DNA of 54,753 bases. Source: Gammaproteobacteria bacterium. Lineage in GTDB: Bacteria; Pseudomonadota; Gammaproteobacteria; GRL18. Of the stretch, positions 18,262-24,803 are shown piece by piece. Position 1 is the first letter of the stretch; each line of letters begins with the position of its first letter. Position numbers and translations under genes: made by a program. The DNA lies in the NCBI GenBank assembly GCA_026196615.1, contig JAPHSW010000004.1, positions 1 through 54,753 of the forward strand, in the 5' to 3' direction. The notes under the pieces were generated by a model, which was not told the DNA's origin, did no database searches, and saw only the letters and a program-made list of their open reading frames with translations.

Positions 18262-18963
18262 ATGATATTTAAACAGAGTATTCTTATTTTTCTCGGCCTT
18301 TATTTAAGTTTGGCTCAGGCTGCTATTGCAGCTAACTGGAGTTTTCCAGGGCCGCCTGATGCCAGAGTTGAGTGGGTAACATCAGATGCTCAGGTTAATA
18401 ACATAAATGTTAAAGGACGAATATTTCACTCTAAACAATCGATGGAAAGAGTTCTGCAGTTTTATCGCAATCTTTGGGAAGGGAATTATGCTGAAATTGA
18501 ATATGGTCCCTGGATATTAATCACCGCAAAGACCGAAAAACTGGTCTATACTGTTCAGGTTCAGCCAAAATCAGGTGGTAAAGGTTCGTATGGTATTTTA
18601 GGAGTGACCGATATTTCTGAAAAACTTGAGGCTGGTGCTGTTTTTAATGAACTGGCTAAAGATTTCCCTAAAATGCAAGACAGTGACGTCACCTCTGAAA
18701 TGAAAATGGATGATCCCGGAAAGAAAGGTAAAGTTATTTTATTAAGTAATAAGTATTCATTATCCAGTAATGTTGTCTATTATAAAAACTATTATCAGAG
18801 TCGTGACTGGAATACTCAAATAGACTATTCGACTGGATTTAATGCGCCGCATACCTTAGTTTTTACCAAAGGACGAGAAAGCGTTAACCTGGTCATAGCA
18901 CGTGCAGATGGAGCAACTAATATTGTGGCGAATGTCGTTGATAAGGGAGTTTTAAGCTGGTGA
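18262..18963 (+). CDS. Secreted protein of unknown function within the Tad locus
   Basis: I do not recognise a family. A signal peptide (MIFKQSILIFLGLYLSLAQAAIA) precedes a mature domain of about 210 residues with several aromatic strands (VLQFYRNLWEG, YGPWILITAKTEKLVYTVQV) and no Cys. It lies between two TadE-like genes, 15 bases after one, and overlaps the next by 4 bases, so it is translated as part of the pilus operon. The likely site is the periplasm, perhaps as a partner of the pseudopilins on either side; that is inferred from position only. Confidence 0.75.
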   Translation: MIFKQSILIFLGLYLSLAQAAIAANWSFPGPPDARVEWVTSDAQVNNINVKGRIFHSKQSMERVLQFYRNLWEGNYAEIEYGPWILITAKTEKLVYTVQVQPKSGGKGSYGILGVTDISEKLEAGAVFNELAKDFPKMQDSDVTSEMKMDDPGKKGKVILLSNKYSLSSNVVYYKNYYQSRDWNTQIDYSTGFNAPHTLVFTKGRESVNLVIARADGATNIVANVVDKGVLSW

Positions 18964-19361
18964 AATCTTCATTCATAAGTAAAAAGTTAATAAATAAAAA
19001 AAGCCCTTCAAGACAAAAGGGGCAAAGCATGGTGGAATACATTGTTGTAATAACAGCTTTGCTGGGGGTATACGTTTCTACTCCCTTGATGGATGAGATG
19101 GCTAATCTTGAAACTGCCATGAATAATAAAAATAAAGGATATGCGTATGCAATCTCTTTGTCTGATTATCTGGACTCAGAAGATATCAACGATCTTATCA
19201 GTTATTATCCTGAAGCTGAGGAACAGTATAATAAATTGCAGGATGCTTATGATGAGTTTGAAACATTCTTTAGTAATGATTTGCCTAGTGGGCTGAGTCT
19301 TGATGGAGTGACTGATATTATAGATATTGATATTAATGATATTTATGATGCTTTATTCTAA
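18960..19361 (+). CDS. Small TadE-like pseudopilin
   Basis: A 133-residue protein with a GTG start that overlaps the preceding stop codon (GTGA), preceded by AAGGGAG. The leader is basic (KKLINKKSPSRQKG) and is followed by the cleavage motif G-QSMVEY and helix IVVITALLGVYVSTPL. The mature part is short and acidic, ending in a run of Asp/Ile-rich repeats (TDIIDIDINDIYDALF). The perfect G-x4-EY motif makes it more pilin-like than the two larger neighbours. It could be a minor pilin. After it a 128-base gap precedes the assembly machinery genes. Confidence 0.78.
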   Translation: MKSSFISKKLINKKSPSRQKGQSMVEYIVVITALLGVYVSTPLMDEMANLETAMNNKNKGYAYAISLSDYLDSEDINDLISYYPEAEEQYNKLQDAYDEFETFFSNDLPSGLSLDGVTDIIDIDINDIYDALF

Positions 19362-19489: not shown

Positions 19490-21634
19490 TTGGGTGAGAA
19501 AAAAACAAGTCCGGTACTGCTATTAGCAGGTGCTGTGTTGTTTGGGATTGTAGCGGTTGTTCTAGCCATTACCTATTTAAATAACAAAGAGGCGGAGCTT
19601 AAGTTAAGCATTAAAGGTCCTAAAATTGATAAAATTGAGGTAGTAGTTGCCAAAGAAAACCTGCCTCGTGGGGTCAAGATTGGTTATCATAATATGGTGA
19701 CCCGGTTAATACCTATCGAATTTGTTCATCCCTCAGCAATTACTCTGAGAAGTTTTGACCAGTATAATGGCAAAATACTGACTGAAAGCCTGCCTGTGGG
19801 CAAACCACTCTTGTCCAGTTTTGTATCAAAAACATTTCCCAAAGATTTTTCAGATACGATTCCTGTAAAAAAACGAGCAATGACCATTCAGGTAGATGAC
19901 ATTAATTCCATCTCCGGCATGATTCGCCCTGGTAATTTTATTGATTTATTTGCTTTAATGCCAGGTAAAGTCATAGATAATGAAGATCAAGATGCTGTTA
20001 TGCCCATACTTCAAAATATTGAAGTGCTGGCAACCGGTGCTCGTTCTTCTAAAGAACATGAAGAACAGCTTCTAATGTTAGCTCGTGGACAGCTCAATAA
20101 GCTCAAAAAATATTCTTCCATCACTGTAAATGTCACCCCTAAACAGGCTGCTTTATTAGCAACTGCACAGGACAAAGGTGATCTTCTTGCCTTATTGAGA
20201 AATCGTAAAGATAAGAGTGGTGCAACTTTTACCAAGATAGAAGTTGCTGATCTGTTAAGCAATGCAGATACCCTGGCAAAAAATAATAAAATGATTGATG
20301 AGCAAAATGCTCTGGGCGGTGCTGCTGTTGCTGAAGAAGGTGATATATTGTTGGCTGATGGGACAATATTAAAAAAAGGGGATTATACGGTTGATAAAAA
20401 TGGCAACATTGTAACCAAAGACGGTAAGGTTATTAATAAACACAATGTCACCAAGCTTGAAGCGGGTCAGATTGTGACCAGTGATGGTAAAGTGCTTAAA
20501 GATAAAAATCTCATTGTTAAAAACGGTGTGATTATGACTAAAGATGGTGTGGTGTTATCTGGACGTGGTTTATCGGTTAATGATAATGGGGAGCTAGTTG
20601 ATGCAAACGGTAATGTTGTTAGTACTGATGGCTTAAAAGTCGCTGCTGATGGCTCTTTGGTCACTAAAGATGGTGTTGTGTTATCAAGTGGTGATCAAGT
20701 GGCTTCAAGTGCTGGTGTAACCGTTGCTAAAGAAGGTGACATATTATTAGCTGATGGTACGATTTTAAAGAAAGGTGATTACACCGTTGATAAAGATGGC
20801 AATATCGTCACTAAAGATGGAAAAGTAATCAAGAAAGATGATGTTACTCGATTAGCTGCAGGACAACTTGTTACGAAAGACGGTATTGTTTTAGATACAG
20901 GCAAAAAAGCACGTGTTGCAGAAGAAGGTGATATCCTCCTGGCTGATGGAACTGTCTTGAAAAAAGGTGATTACACTGTTGATAAAGACGGTAATATTGT
21001 GACCAAATACGGTAAAGTGATTAAAAAATCTGATGTTACTAAATTGGCTGCAGGTCAGGTTATACCAGATAGTGAACCTAGAGTTGCAGAAGAGGGTGAT
21101 ATTTTATTGGCAGATGGCACGATTCTCAAAAAAGGTGATTATACCGTTGATAAAGACGGCAATATTGTCACTAAAAATGGAACTGTTATTAAGAAATCTG
21201 ATGTTAAAAAGTTGGTTGCTGGACAGGTAGTACCAGATGGAGGTCTAATCGTTGCAGAAGAAGGTGATGTTATGCTGGCCGATGGTACGGTTCTCAAGAA
21301 AGGCAGTTTTACCATTGATAAAGATGGCAATATCGTAACTAAAGACGGTAAAGTTATTAGTAAGAATGAAGTTACTCGTTTGAAAGTGGGTCAGCTTGTG
21401 ACTGCAGATGGTAAAGTGGTGAATCCTGAAGACATTGTTGTTATGGCTGATGGTACCGTTCGAACTAAAAATGGTGATGTGATTTCTGGTGTAACAGGTG
21501 ATACCGCTGACATAGCAGAAACATTGGCTCGAACAATTGAAGGCGAAAAGATTGATTTTCTTGCAGGTGGCAATAGTAAAGATGGTGTTGCAGAAGTGGG
21601 TGAATTACCAGTATTAGAAACTAATCAGAATTAA
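19490..21634 (+). CDS. cpaB: Flp pilus assembly protein CpaB/RcpC with a C-terminal repeat array
   Basis: CpaB is a periplasmic, membrane-tethered component that associates with the Tad secretin. An N-terminal membrane anchor (about residues 8-28) precedes an SAF-type domain (about 48-112, VVVAKENLPRGVKIG) and the RcpC domain (about 125-240, ending in VNVTPKQAALLATAQDKG). These 260 residues are a normal CpaB. The remaining 430 residues are extra: five copies of a 56-residue unit beginning at residues 280, 412, 476, 532 and 588, with core EEGDILLADGT(I/V)LKKGDYT followed by VDKDGNIVTKDGKVI. The start is TTG. I know of no CpaB with such a tail. Family assignment is secure; the tail function is unknown. 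Confidence 0.9.
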   Translation: MGEKKTSPVLLLAGAVLFGIVAVVLAITYLNNKEAELKLSIKGPKIDKIEVVVAKENLPRGVKIGYHNMVTRLIPIEFVHPSAITLRSFDQYNGKILTESLPVGKPLLSSFVSKTFPKDFSDTIPVKKRAMTIQVDDINSISGMIRPGNFIDLFALMPGKVIDNEDQDAVMPILQNIEVLATGARSSKEHEEQLLMLARGQLNKLKKYSSITVNVTPKQAALLATAQDKGDLLALLRNRKDKSGATFTKIEVADLLSNADTLAKNNKMIDEQNALGGAAVAEEGDILLADGTILKKGDYTVDKNGNIVTKDGKVINKHNVTKLEAGQIVTSDGKVLKDKNLIVKNGVIMTKDGVVLSGRGLSVNDNGELVDANGNVVSTDGLKVAADGSLVTKDGVVLSSGDQVASSAGVTVAKEGDILLADGTILKKGDYTVDKDGNIVTKDGKVIKKDDVTRLAAGQLVTKDGIVLDTGKKARVAEEGDILLADGTVLKKGDYTVDKDGNIVTKYGKVIKKSDVTKLAAGQVIPDSEPRVAEEGDILLADGTILKKGDYTVDKDGNIVTKNGTVIKKSDVKKLVAGQVVPDGGLIVAEEGDVMLADGTVLKKGSFTIDKDGNIVTKDGKVISKNEVTRLKVGQLVTADGKVVNPEDIVVMADGTVRTKNGDVISGVTGDTADIAETLARTIEGEKIDFLAGGNSKDGVAEVGELPVLETNQN
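20327..21418 (+). repeat. Coding tandem repeat: five 168-base units in cpaB
   Basis: Units begin at 20327, 20723, 20915, 21083 and 21251. The last three are exactly 168 bases apart; unit 2 is 192 bases long, and unit 1 carries an inserted stretch of about 76 codons that contains shorter degenerate copies (KDGVVLSG, ADGSLVTKDGVVLSSG). Units differ mainly at third codon positions, while the protein core is nearly constant. That indicates selection on the protein and an array old enough to have lost DNA identity. The short xDGxV(L/I) strands suggest a beta-solenoid or similar stacked fold. Confidence 0.88.
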
Positions 21635-21648
21635 TAGTAGAGATAAGA

Positions 21649-23127
21649 ATGAAAACAATGACTAAAATTATATTTTTTCTAATGGGATTGACTCTCAGCC
21701 AGGCTTTGATGGCAGCTCCAAGCAATTATTTTATGTTTGTGGGTGAAGTCAAAGTCTACCAGATTGATGAACCTGTCGAACGGGTTGCAGTTGGTAATGG
21801 TAAATTACTTAGCACTTCAATTACAGATAAAGGGGAATTAATTCTTATTGCGGAATCAAAAGGTGATACCAATATTCATATCTGGATGAAGAATGGTAAT
21901 GAGCATCGATTGAAAGTCTATGTGACTGAAAAAGATATTGCTCGTGTTGTTTCTGAATTAAAACAAGCACTTTCAGGGGTAAAAAAACTTAAAATTAAAA
22001 AAGTAGGTGATTTTATTGTTCTGGAAGGTGAGGTTGAGAAAAAATACCAAACAGTGATTGAAGAGGTTGGGAAAAAATATGACTCACTGATTAATCTCGT
22101 CGAATACAATGATTTTCTTGGTGATAATTTTAGTGAATTACAATCTGCACTTAAAGCCGTTCCAGGCTTAAGTATCAGAAAATTGGGCGACCGCATTTTG
22201 CTCGAAGGTGATGTTGATGAAAAATATAAACTGATAATGGCAGCAGTGCTTGAAGCATTTGGTGGCAGTAATATTCTTAATTTGACAAAAACTCCCACTG
22301 TTTTAAATAATAAAATGATTTATATGAATGTTAAAATTACTGAATTTGCAACCAGTGATTTAGATGAGTTGGGTATTGACTGGGATTCACAAGTTAATGG
22401 GCCTTATGGTGGTTATATTGGTGGTAATAAAATACCTCGTGGACTTTCTGGCGGTGATGGCTCCAGAACAATCTCAGATCTTGCTGATGCCGGTTATACT
22501 GGAGGTTATTTTGGTATCGCGACAGAAATAACTTCGCGGATTAATTTACTGGTCTCCAGTGGTGATGCGCTTTTATTGGCTGAGCCTAGATTGAGCGCTT
22601 ATAGCGGTGGTGAAGCAGAATTTTTAGCAGGTGGTGAACTGCCAATTCCGTTTACTAATTCAGATGGTTCAATTTCAGTAGAGTATAAAGAATACGGCAT
22701 TATTTTAAAGATAAACCCTATTGCTGATGAACAGGGAAATATCAGTGCTCATGTTGAAACAGAAGTCAGTTCAGTAGATGAATCAGTCTCCGTTGAAGGT
22801 GTGCCAGGTTTTAAAACAAGAAGAACTTATACTGATGTTCGTATGAAAGATAAACAGACTCTAGTTCTGTCCGGCCTTATAAATAATGAAATTTCTAAAG
22901 ATAAAAGTGGGCTTCCTGTTTTAGGAGAAGCATTTGAGGGAATTCCTGTTTTAGGGCGTTTATTTCAGTCCGAAGGTTTTAATAGCTCTCAAACCCAACT
23001 GGTTATTTTTGTCACACCAACTATTTATGATGCTGATTCAGAGTTAAATAAACAAGAAGAAGCACGCGCAAAAAGCCTGGTTGATAGCTTTAAGTCTAAA
23101 ACCGGTATTGAAGAGATCATTGACTAG
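21649..23127 (+). CDS. cpaC: Tad pilus outer-membrane secretin (CpaC/RcpA)
   Basis: Forms the outer-membrane ring through which the Flp pilus exits. A signal peptide (ending ALMA-APS) precedes the CpaC-type N domain (about 27-95, FVGEVKVYQIDEPVERVAVGNG) and two BON-like repeats that align with each other (LKIKKVGDFIVLEGEVEKKYQ- and LSIRKLGDRILLEGDVDEKYK-type strands, about 108-205). The secretin core follows, with LLAEPRLSAYSGGEAEFLAGGE, VEYKEYGIILKINP, VPGFKTRRTYTDV and PVLGRLFQS, ending in the usual TQLVIFVTPTIY. The length of 492 is typical. It begins 14 bases after cpaB with AGAGATAAGA as ribosome binding site. No RcpB/TadD-type pilotin other than the downstream TPR lipoprotein is present. 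Confidence 0.93.
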   Translation: MKTMTKIIFFLMGLTLSQALMAAPSNYFMFVGEVKVYQIDEPVERVAVGNGKLLSTSITDKGELILIAESKGDTNIHIWMKNGNEHRLKVYVTEKDIARVVSELKQALSGVKKLKIKKVGDFIVLEGEVEKKYQTVIEEVGKKYDSLINLVEYNDFLGDNFSELQSALKAVPGLSIRKLGDRILLEGDVDEKYKLIMAAVLEAFGGSNILNLTKTPTVLNNKMIYMNVKITEFATSDLDELGIDWDSQVNGPYGGYIGGNKIPRGLSGGDGSRTISDLADAGYTGGYFGIATEITSRINLLVSSGDALLLAEPRLSAYSGGEAEFLAGGELPIPFTNSDGSISVEYKEYGIILKINPIADEQGNISAHVETEVSSVDESVSVEGVPGFKTRRTYTDVRMKDKQTLVLSGLINNEISKDKSGLPVLGEAFEGIPVLGRLFQSEGFNSSQTQLVIFVTPTIYDADSELNKQEEARAKSLVDSFKSKTGIEEIID

Positions 23128-23141
23128 GGAATAGTTTAATT

Positions 23142-24803
23142 ATGTTTGAAATTTCAGTAGCAACGAATAATGGTAAATCAGTTGATAAAGTTCGCTGTAT
23201 GGTCAATAAGTGCACTTTGGGAAAATCAAGAGACAACCTGGTTCAGCTTCGTGGTTGGAAAATGGCTCAAGTGCATGCAGAAATCGAACAAAACCCAGAT
23301 GGCTTATATGTTAAGGATATAAGTGATGGTAGTGGAATAAAAGTCAATGATAAAACGGTTGAACACTATGGACCGTTAAATGAAAAAGACGAAATTATGA
23401 TTGGCAGCTATGTGATCAGACTTTCAGCGGAAGAAAAAGAAGAAGAAATTCCTGTTCTTGGAGCATCTTCTGATCAAGAGACCGCCGACGAAATGGAATC
23501 AGAAGAGCTGGCTCAGAGAAAATTGAATAAAGAATATATCCGATGGCGTACGCAGATACATAGTGAGTTGCTTACGATGATGGATATTCGACGTACAGAT
23601 GTTGGGGATATGACTGATCGTGAATTACGCCTCAGTGTTTCAAAATATATTGATCAGATCGTTGAAAATATGGCGGCAGCAATACCTCCTCATATTGAAA
23701 AAGAAAAGCTGTCAAGGGATGTATTGGATGAAGCTGTAGGTCTTGGACCTCTTGAAGCATTACTCGAGCAAGATGATATTACTGAAATTATGGTTAATAG
23801 TTTTGATGATATTTATGTGGAAAAATCTGGGAAGTTGATTCAAAGTGGCGTAACTTTTAGTGATGACCATGCCGTACTTTCAGCGATTGAACGTATTGTA
23901 TCACCTTTAGGACGACGTATTGATGAAAGTTCACCAATGGTTGATGCACGACTTAAAGATGGTTCTCGTGTTAATGCGATTATTCCTCCGCTTGCATTAC
24001 GCGGACCCTGTATTACAATTCGTAAATTTGCCAAGGAAAAACTGACGGGTGAAGATTTAATTGCATATAATTCAATCAATACAAATATGGTCGCCTTCCT
24101 GAAAACCGCCGTAGAAGAGCGTTGTAATATTGTGATTTCAGGTGGTACAGGTTCGGGAAAAACAACTTTATTAAATGTGATGTCAAACTTTATTCCACAT
24201 GAAGAACGCGTGGTTACTGTGGAAGATGCTGCGGAGTTAAAATTGAGCATGCCGCATATTGTTTCTCTGGAATCCAGACCACCCAATCTGGAAGGTAAAG
24301 GTGCCGTTCCTATTCGTGATCTAGTCAAAAACTGTTTACGCATGCGACCTGATCGCATTGTTGTGGGTGAGTGTCGTGGTGGCGAAGCTCTGGATATGTT
24401 ACAGGCAATGAACACTGGTCATGATGGTTCTTTGACCACAGCACATGCCAATACACCCAGGGATGTCATTTCTCGCCTTGAAGTTATGGTGATGATGGCT
24501 GGTATGGACTTACCTGCTTCCGCAATCAGAGAACAAATTGGTTCAGCAGTTGATATTATTGTTCAGCAAACTCGCTTTGCGGATGGTAGTAGAAAAATTA
24601 CTCATATTTCAGAAATAACAGGAGTTGAAAGCGGAAAAATTTCCTTGCAGGATATTTTTCTGTTTAAGCAGTCAGGCTATGATGATAAAGGTAAGGTTAC
24701 TGGCAAATTTGTTGCAACAGGTCTGGTTCCATATTTTTATGAAACATTGAGAGAGCGAGGGATCAAAGTGGATATGAGCCTGTTCGAAACTGGGGCATCA
24801 TAA
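23142..24803 (+). CDS. cpaF: Tad pilus assembly ATPase CpaF/TadA with N-terminal FHA-like domain
   Basis: The cytoplasmic motor for Flp pilus assembly. Residues about 1-95 form an FHA-like domain (CTLGKSRDNLVQ, QVHAEIEQNPDGLYVKDI, DGSGIKVND), followed by the helical N domain (about 125-185) and the secretion ATPase core. Walker A is GGTGSGKTTLLN (Lys340), the Asp box is ERVVTVEDAAEL, Walker B is RIVVGECRGGEALDML and the His box is TGHDGSLTTAHAN. FHA domains bind phosphothreonine, but the usual Ser-x-x-His signature reads AQVHAE here, so the key serine is missing and binding may be lost or changed. Most CpaF proteins lack this domain, and here no TadZ/CpaE gene accompanies it. It starts 14 bases after the secretin gene and ends 1 base before tadB. 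Confidence 0.94.
   Translation: MFEISVATNNGKSVDKVRCMVNKCTLGKSRDNLVQLRGWKMAQVHAEIEQNPDGLYVKDISDGSGIKVNDKTVEHYGPLNEKDEIMIGSYVIRLSAEEKEEEIPVLGASSDQETADEMESEELAQRKLNKEYIRWRTQIHSELLTMMDIRRTDVGDMTDRELRLSVSKYIDQIVENMAAAIPPHIEKEKLSRDVLDEAVGLGPLEALLEQDDITEIMVNSFDDIYVEKSGKLIQSGVTFSDDHAVLSAIERIVSPLGRRIDESSPMVDARLKDGSRVNAIIPPLALRGPCITIRKFAKEKLTGEDLIAYNSINTNMVAFLKTAVEERCNIVISGGTGSGKTTLLNVMSNFIPHEERVVTVEDAAELKLSMPHIVSLESRPPNLEGKGAVPIRDLVKNCLRMRPDRIVVGECRGGEALDMLQAMNTGHDGSLTTAHANTPRDVISRLEVMVMMAGMDLPASAIREQIGSAVDIIVQQTRFADGSRKITHISEITGVESGKISLQDIFLFKQSGYDDKGKVTGKFVATGLVPYFYETLRERGIKVDMSLFETGAS

Follow-up and report, generated by a model that had tools for sequence, protein, structure and literature searches.

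A DG-repeat array between the core and the C-terminal hairpin of CpaB in a branch of Tad pilus machines

Results

A CpaB protein with a repeat array in a tad operon

The window, i.e., the whole stretch of 54,753 nucleotides analyzed here, carries a tad operon whose cpaB gene encodes a long array of DG repeats (proteins and loci with such an array are called tailed below, for short). The order of genes is TadG-like, a second TadE/G-like gene, a 233-aa secreted protein, a pilin-like protein, cpaB, cpaC, and FHA-TadA, followed by two TadB/C-like genes, a small protein, a TPR protein (TadD-like), and TadE, so that cpaB has its tad context of secretin and ATPase present downstream. The neighbors of cpaB considered here are:

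18262 to 18963, + strand: 233-aa secreted protein, unassigned to a family, conserved in tailed and many untailed loci of this Tad type
18960 to 19361, + strand: pilin-like protein directly upstream of cpaB, with a QKGQSMVEY prepilin-type motif read from the sequence
21649 to 23127, + strand: cpaC/rcpA secretin with N-terminal pilus domain (PF00263, E=2.6e-37; PF13629, E=5.3e-15), the expected docking partner
23142 to 24803, + strand: TadA/CpaF ATPase with N-terminal FHA domain (PF00437, E=3.6e-62; PF00498, E=6e-9)

Searches of Pfam and NCBIfam returned no match for the 233-aa secreted protein. FHA-TadA is common to untailed Burkholderiales loci too and is therefore not a marker of the array. 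A search of the window's own genome found no DG array beyond CpaB. In the related genome G018, a DG-repeat insert is present in the TadG-like protein (L025:676-2001, minus strand; also L081) but absent from the window's counterpart, and a pilin-like open reading frame of G377 (L068:2210-3076, 288 aa) contains DG-like stretches.

The gene itself and the parts of its product are the following:

19490 to 21634, + strand: cpaB/rcpC, 714 aa with a TTG start
19511 to 19612, + strand: N-terminal transmembrane helix (aa 8-41), a hydrophobic helix in the AF2 model, positioned as in RcpC/CpaB
19637 to 20200, + strand: SAF-like D1 and RcpC D2 domains (aa 50-237)
20243 to 20305, + strand: helix after D2 (aa 252-272) in the AF2 model, positional counterpart of RcpC alpha7 in linker L3
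20330 to 21487, + strand: DG-repeat array (aa about 281-666), with about 17 scored 21-residue units and five core superunits
21551 to 21616, + strand: C-terminal hairpin motif IDFLAGGNSKDGVAEVGELPVL (aa 688-709), the predicted secretin-docking hairpin

Membership in the CpaB family is established by profile searches (TIGR03177 at aa 10-265, E=3.8e-40, 137.8 bits against a cut-off of 71), which also place an RcpC domain at aa 120-237 (PF16976, E=4.8e-22, 78.5 bits, cut-off 28.8) and an SAF domain at aa 50-110 (PF08666, E=2.6e-7, 31.5 bits, cut-off 21). The AF2 model has a single N-terminal transmembrane helix and a D1/D2 fold like that of RcpC, whose structure 9gzr is its best Foldseek match (E=2.1e-11 over 196 columns), while the helix after D2 aligns across tailed CpaBs with the pattern D[IL]..NA..M. 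Both sequence and fold identify the gene product as CpaB (= RcpC), a subunit of the Tad alignment complex. An earlier note, made from this DNA alone, had described it as an ordinary CpaB followed by repeats, and this description was borne out, with the direct repeats coming after the region matched by TIGR03177.

An array built on seven-residue elements

Direct repeats cover about 20293-21413 of the window (TRF score 491, period 168 nt). The array had originally been read as five 56-residue repeats; five core copies are indeed there, but their spacing is not uniform, as the anchor GD[IV][LM]LADGT occurs at aa 284, 416, 480, 536, and 592 (spacings of 132, 64, 56, and 56 residues). Strict 56-mers are thus limited to the last three core copies, and four further DG units occupy the first gap. 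Self-similarity of the array at lag 56 is 0.33 versus 0.09 in shuffled sequence, and the leading autocorrelation lags are 56, 21, 120, 112, 132, 64, 49, 7, 77, 42, 35, 70, 28, and 98, of which all those below 112 are multiples of 7 except 64. In the tailed branch as a whole, the strongest enrichment of glycine pairs is at lag 7 (3.6-fold), followed by lags 14, 40, 21, and 28. Because the lags are mostly multiples of 7, the elementary unit is 7 residues long; three of these make up the 21-residue repeat xxxGxhhTxDGxhhxxxxhxh, and the 56-mer is a higher-order multiple of eight.

The divergence of third codon positions between units that the earlier note had pointed out was confirmed: the five core copies of the window are 67-88% identical in protein and only 39-57% at third positions, with pairwise dN of 0.08-0.24 and dS above 1 where it can be calculated. 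Since the protein is conserved while third positions have diverged and dS exceeds 1, the copies are old and selected rather than products of recent duplication or of assembly stutter. An assembly artefact is ruled out as the origin of the array because independent MAGs of several related species have in-frame, diverged units of the same kind; the exact copy number given for the window is that of the assembly.

The array precedes a conserved C-terminal hairpin motif

The array lies between the core and a C-terminal hairpin and does not form the C terminus itself, so that the label "tail" used in the earlier note does not hold. The hairpin motif IDFLAGGNSKDGVAEVGELPVL is kept at the same place after the array in all 35 complete tailed proteins (35/35, counting L003 and L004, for which the search pattern caught another stretch although the motif is in their sequences), while the remaining 3 of the 38 tailed proteins end at contig ends and are outside this count. 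In the AF2 model, two weak strands are placed here, at residues 688-691 and 703-706, with low confidence. The motif aligns with the VTVYRG strand of RcpC through an untailed CpaB, and untailed CpaBs mostly finish in a [VI]x[IV][IL].GG-type strand (e.g., VEIIRGG or VTVIRGT) after a short linker. As the array precedes this conserved hairpin, it is an insertion in linker L3, between the helix after D2 and the C-terminal hairpin.

In MAG SJ809, a separate open reading frame between cpaB and cpaC (L090:6674-7291; also L069) combines DG units and the same CpaB hairpin motif with a start that resembles a signal peptide, as would be expected if array and hairpin form an autonomous docking module; if real, this frame would mean that the two are able to act apart from the ring. 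In L097, from a Chromatiales MAG, an apparent frameshift interrupts cpaB and leaves core and DG array in different reading frames. At the contig end of L068, the reading frame finishes in SLIHISEPTRPLYIS, which resembles adapter read-through in that assembly.

A predicted beta-rich fold

AF2 modeled the full-length protein with a mean confidence of 67.6 and a 227-residue fragment, with 31 aligned relatives, with a mean of 72.4. In the fragment model, the first 120 residues of the array have a pLDDT of about 80-93, and short strands recur every 7 residues. Foldseek found no significant solved fold for the fragment model (best E=0.015), and VIA-align of the array gave only small-barrel matches with Z under 3.5. 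The resemblances of the fragment model to glucan-binding repeats, clostridial toxin oligopeptide repeats, the phi92 spike, and flagellar rod proteins were rejected, with E values of 0.015 or worse, and a toxin-repeat match of the full-length model (E=1.5e-5) is distrusted at a TM of 0.07. We regard the array as beta-rich and folded, and it is probably folded in the cell as well. The solenoid proposed earlier is plausible in view of the strands every 7 residues, but no significant match to a solved fold stands behind it. By arithmetic, the array would reach about 9-10 nm with 21 residues per coil and up to about 30 nm with one strand for every 7-residue element.

Single DG units are matched above cut-off by the Pfam profiles LlgE_F_G_D1 (PF22692), DUF3659 (PF12396), and DUF6799 (PF20606). 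What is matched are short strands with glycine turns, in proteins that have no other relation to CpaB. These matches suggest a local beta-turn structure and not a function.

One lineage with variable unit number and conserved units

An array of this kind is not unique to the CpaB of this genome, as had first been supposed. In an even sample of the class Gammaproteobacteria, CpaB was found above cut-off in 54 of 369 genomes, and DG arrays in 13 of these 54, counting the genome of the window. When 84,980 species genomes were scanned with a core alignment, 40 loci were recovered, most of which have arrays; they belong to Gammaproteobacteria (Thiohalobacter, Thiotrichaceae, Pseudomonadales, and MAGs) and to Desulfobulbaceae/Desulfocapsaceae. 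The pattern used had been built from tailed proteins, and the scan is therefore biased toward them. Altogether, 38 distinct arrays were gathered from Gammaproteobacteria and Desulfobulbales. In a phylum sample, none of the best-scoring CpaBs listed exceeds 393 aa, and tailed ones are expected among the weaker matches, so that this sample yields no frequency of tailed CpaBs. Long open frames in G295, G277, G301, G280, and others were rejected because their sequences are not DG arrays.

On a maximum-likelihood tree built from 63 cores without the array, of which 38 come from tailed and 25 from untailed proteins, the distribution of tailed and untailed states needs a single change, while shuffled states need 19.9 on average and none of 500 shuffles was as low. 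The tailed clade of 36 rows is supported at 96/95, which falls to 71/31 with the short-array pair L006/L054. Tailed CpaBs thus appear to form essentially one lineage, weakly supported once L006/L054 are included, and the simplest reading of the tree would be one gain, long retention, and transfer between phyla.

Within this lineage, the length of array plus C terminus ranges from 120 to 540 residues (median 338), and close relatives differ by whole units. Among species of the window's own family, there are four superunits each in L003 and L004, five in the window, six in L002, and eight in L005. The array is under purifying selection, with an omega of 0.080 for L003 versus L004 compared with 0.061 for the core, i.e., as strong as that on the core. 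A drifting number of units whose sequence is held would be expected of a folded part rather than of an idle linker.

Discussion

We consider it somewhat probable that the array is a folded, modular part of variable length that tethers the CpaB ring to the secretin in the periplasm. As in RcpC, the CpaB core would build a ring in the periplasm with its anchor in the inner membrane, and the C-terminal hairpin would bind the N domain of CpaC, the secretin of the outer membrane; the array, as a folded spacer made of modules, would carry the hairpin up to this secretin, and the distance between ring and secretin would vary between species through gain and loss of units by recombination. By analogy with RcpC, the ring and the docking of the hairpin on the predicted partner CpaC are probably conserved in the tailed branch, and the property of the array under selection may be reach or tethering. 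The array is not a strict ruler because its length spans 120-540 aa, and extra reach is not obviously needed because the RcpA:RcpC model of P. aeruginosa nearly spans its periplasm without an array (PMC12307814). Of the places of action considered in the earlier note, the periplasm is the probable one. The array precedes a hairpin whose RcpC counterpart attaches to the secretin N domain, which argues against action outside the cell; an extracellular adhesin tail is likewise disfavored by the predicted secretin-docking hairpin standing after the array.

The main alternative, though an unlikely one, is that the arrays (presumably twelve) pack side by side as a tubular wall, by which the RcpC conduit would be lengthened and peptidoglycan kept away from the pilus. 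The 5 nm pore of RcpC suits the 4.5 nm pilus that it is thought to shield (PMC12307814), twelve rods of about 2.2 nm width would by estimate enclose a lumen near 6 nm, and the strong purifying selection on the array would agree with such a wall, yet its staves would need lateral contacts and array length differs 4.5-fold across the branch. It is equally doubtful that a whole branch of Tad machines has a length-adjustable periplasmic sleeve, in which repeat rods would rise from the CpaB ring to the secretin and the conduit itself, beyond a mere tether, would be extended or retuned between species by gain and loss of units based on 7 residues. Other readings appear less likely than this one. Binding of the array to peptidoglycan or another envelope component, which would anchor the machine in the wall, has only a small chance of being right: in Caulobacter, the link between secretin and alignment complex is associated with peptidoglycan through CpaI (PMC13170226), and Foldseek detects a weak resemblance to glucan-binding and oligopeptide-repeat domains (E of 0.015 and worse), but these resemblances are not significant and no known peptidoglycan-binding family was matched.

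We find it more improbable still that the array recognizes cargo passing through the ring, e.g., pilin-like or TadE/TadG-like proteins of the operon, some of which bear DG repeats. Almost every tailed locus has a homologue of the pilin-like gene that stands directly upstream of cpaB in the window, and one untailed locus has a weak one, but this co-occurrence may simply mirror one conserved operon; the DG stretches of the G377 pilin-like protein and the DG insert of the G018 TadG-like protein would point the same way, but the latter is confined to one lineage. Least of all do we expect a neutral expansion in a permissive linker that has no function. Many CpaBs have short linkers instead and unit number shifts quickly between close species, as such an expansion would have it, but array omega (0.08) is low like that of the core, the protein is conserved between units with dS above 1 where calculable, and all 38 sampled members of the branch have retained the array.

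How the inner- and outer-membrane halves of Tad machines are joined became an answerable question only in 2025-2026. The tailed branch has 120-540 extra residues exactly at the link between ring and secretin, and related species differ there by whole units. These proteins are therefore a natural test set for asking whether CpaB sets the distance between ring and secretin, the length of the conduit, or the spacing of the envelope. As the earlier note had surmised, no description of a CpaB DG array was found in the open-access papers searched, nor was a function, and tailed CpaBs are a widespread and apparently undescribed branch of this alignment-complex subunit.

Comparison with known systems

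In Caulobacter crescentus, CpaB belongs to the same family, and its C-terminal hairpin is modeled as the outer-membrane-side contact. Unlike in our case, this contact is made through CpaI, on which the hairpin is modeled, and the passages considered here describe no repeat array; the published discussion holds that the link between inner and outer membrane of Tad machines differs between species (PMC13170226).

For RcpC of Pseudomonas aeruginosa, the layout D1-D2-L3(alpha7)-hairpin is experimental. RcpC forms a dodecameric ring about 15 nm wide in which L3 contributes an amphipathic helix packed on the neighboring subunit, followed by the hairpin that completes the sheet of the secretin N domain. 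Secretin binding and pilus function both depend on this hairpin, and biofilm formation and aggregation are lost when it is removed; the RcpA:RcpC model measures 21 nm in a periplasm of 24 nm (PMC12307814). The CpaB of the window resembles RcpC (9gzr) in its transmembrane helix, SAF-like D1, RcpC D2, L3 helix, and predicted C-terminal hairpin strand; however, RcpC has 303 aa with a short L3, whereas the window's CpaB has about 390 DG-repeat residues between helix and hairpin.
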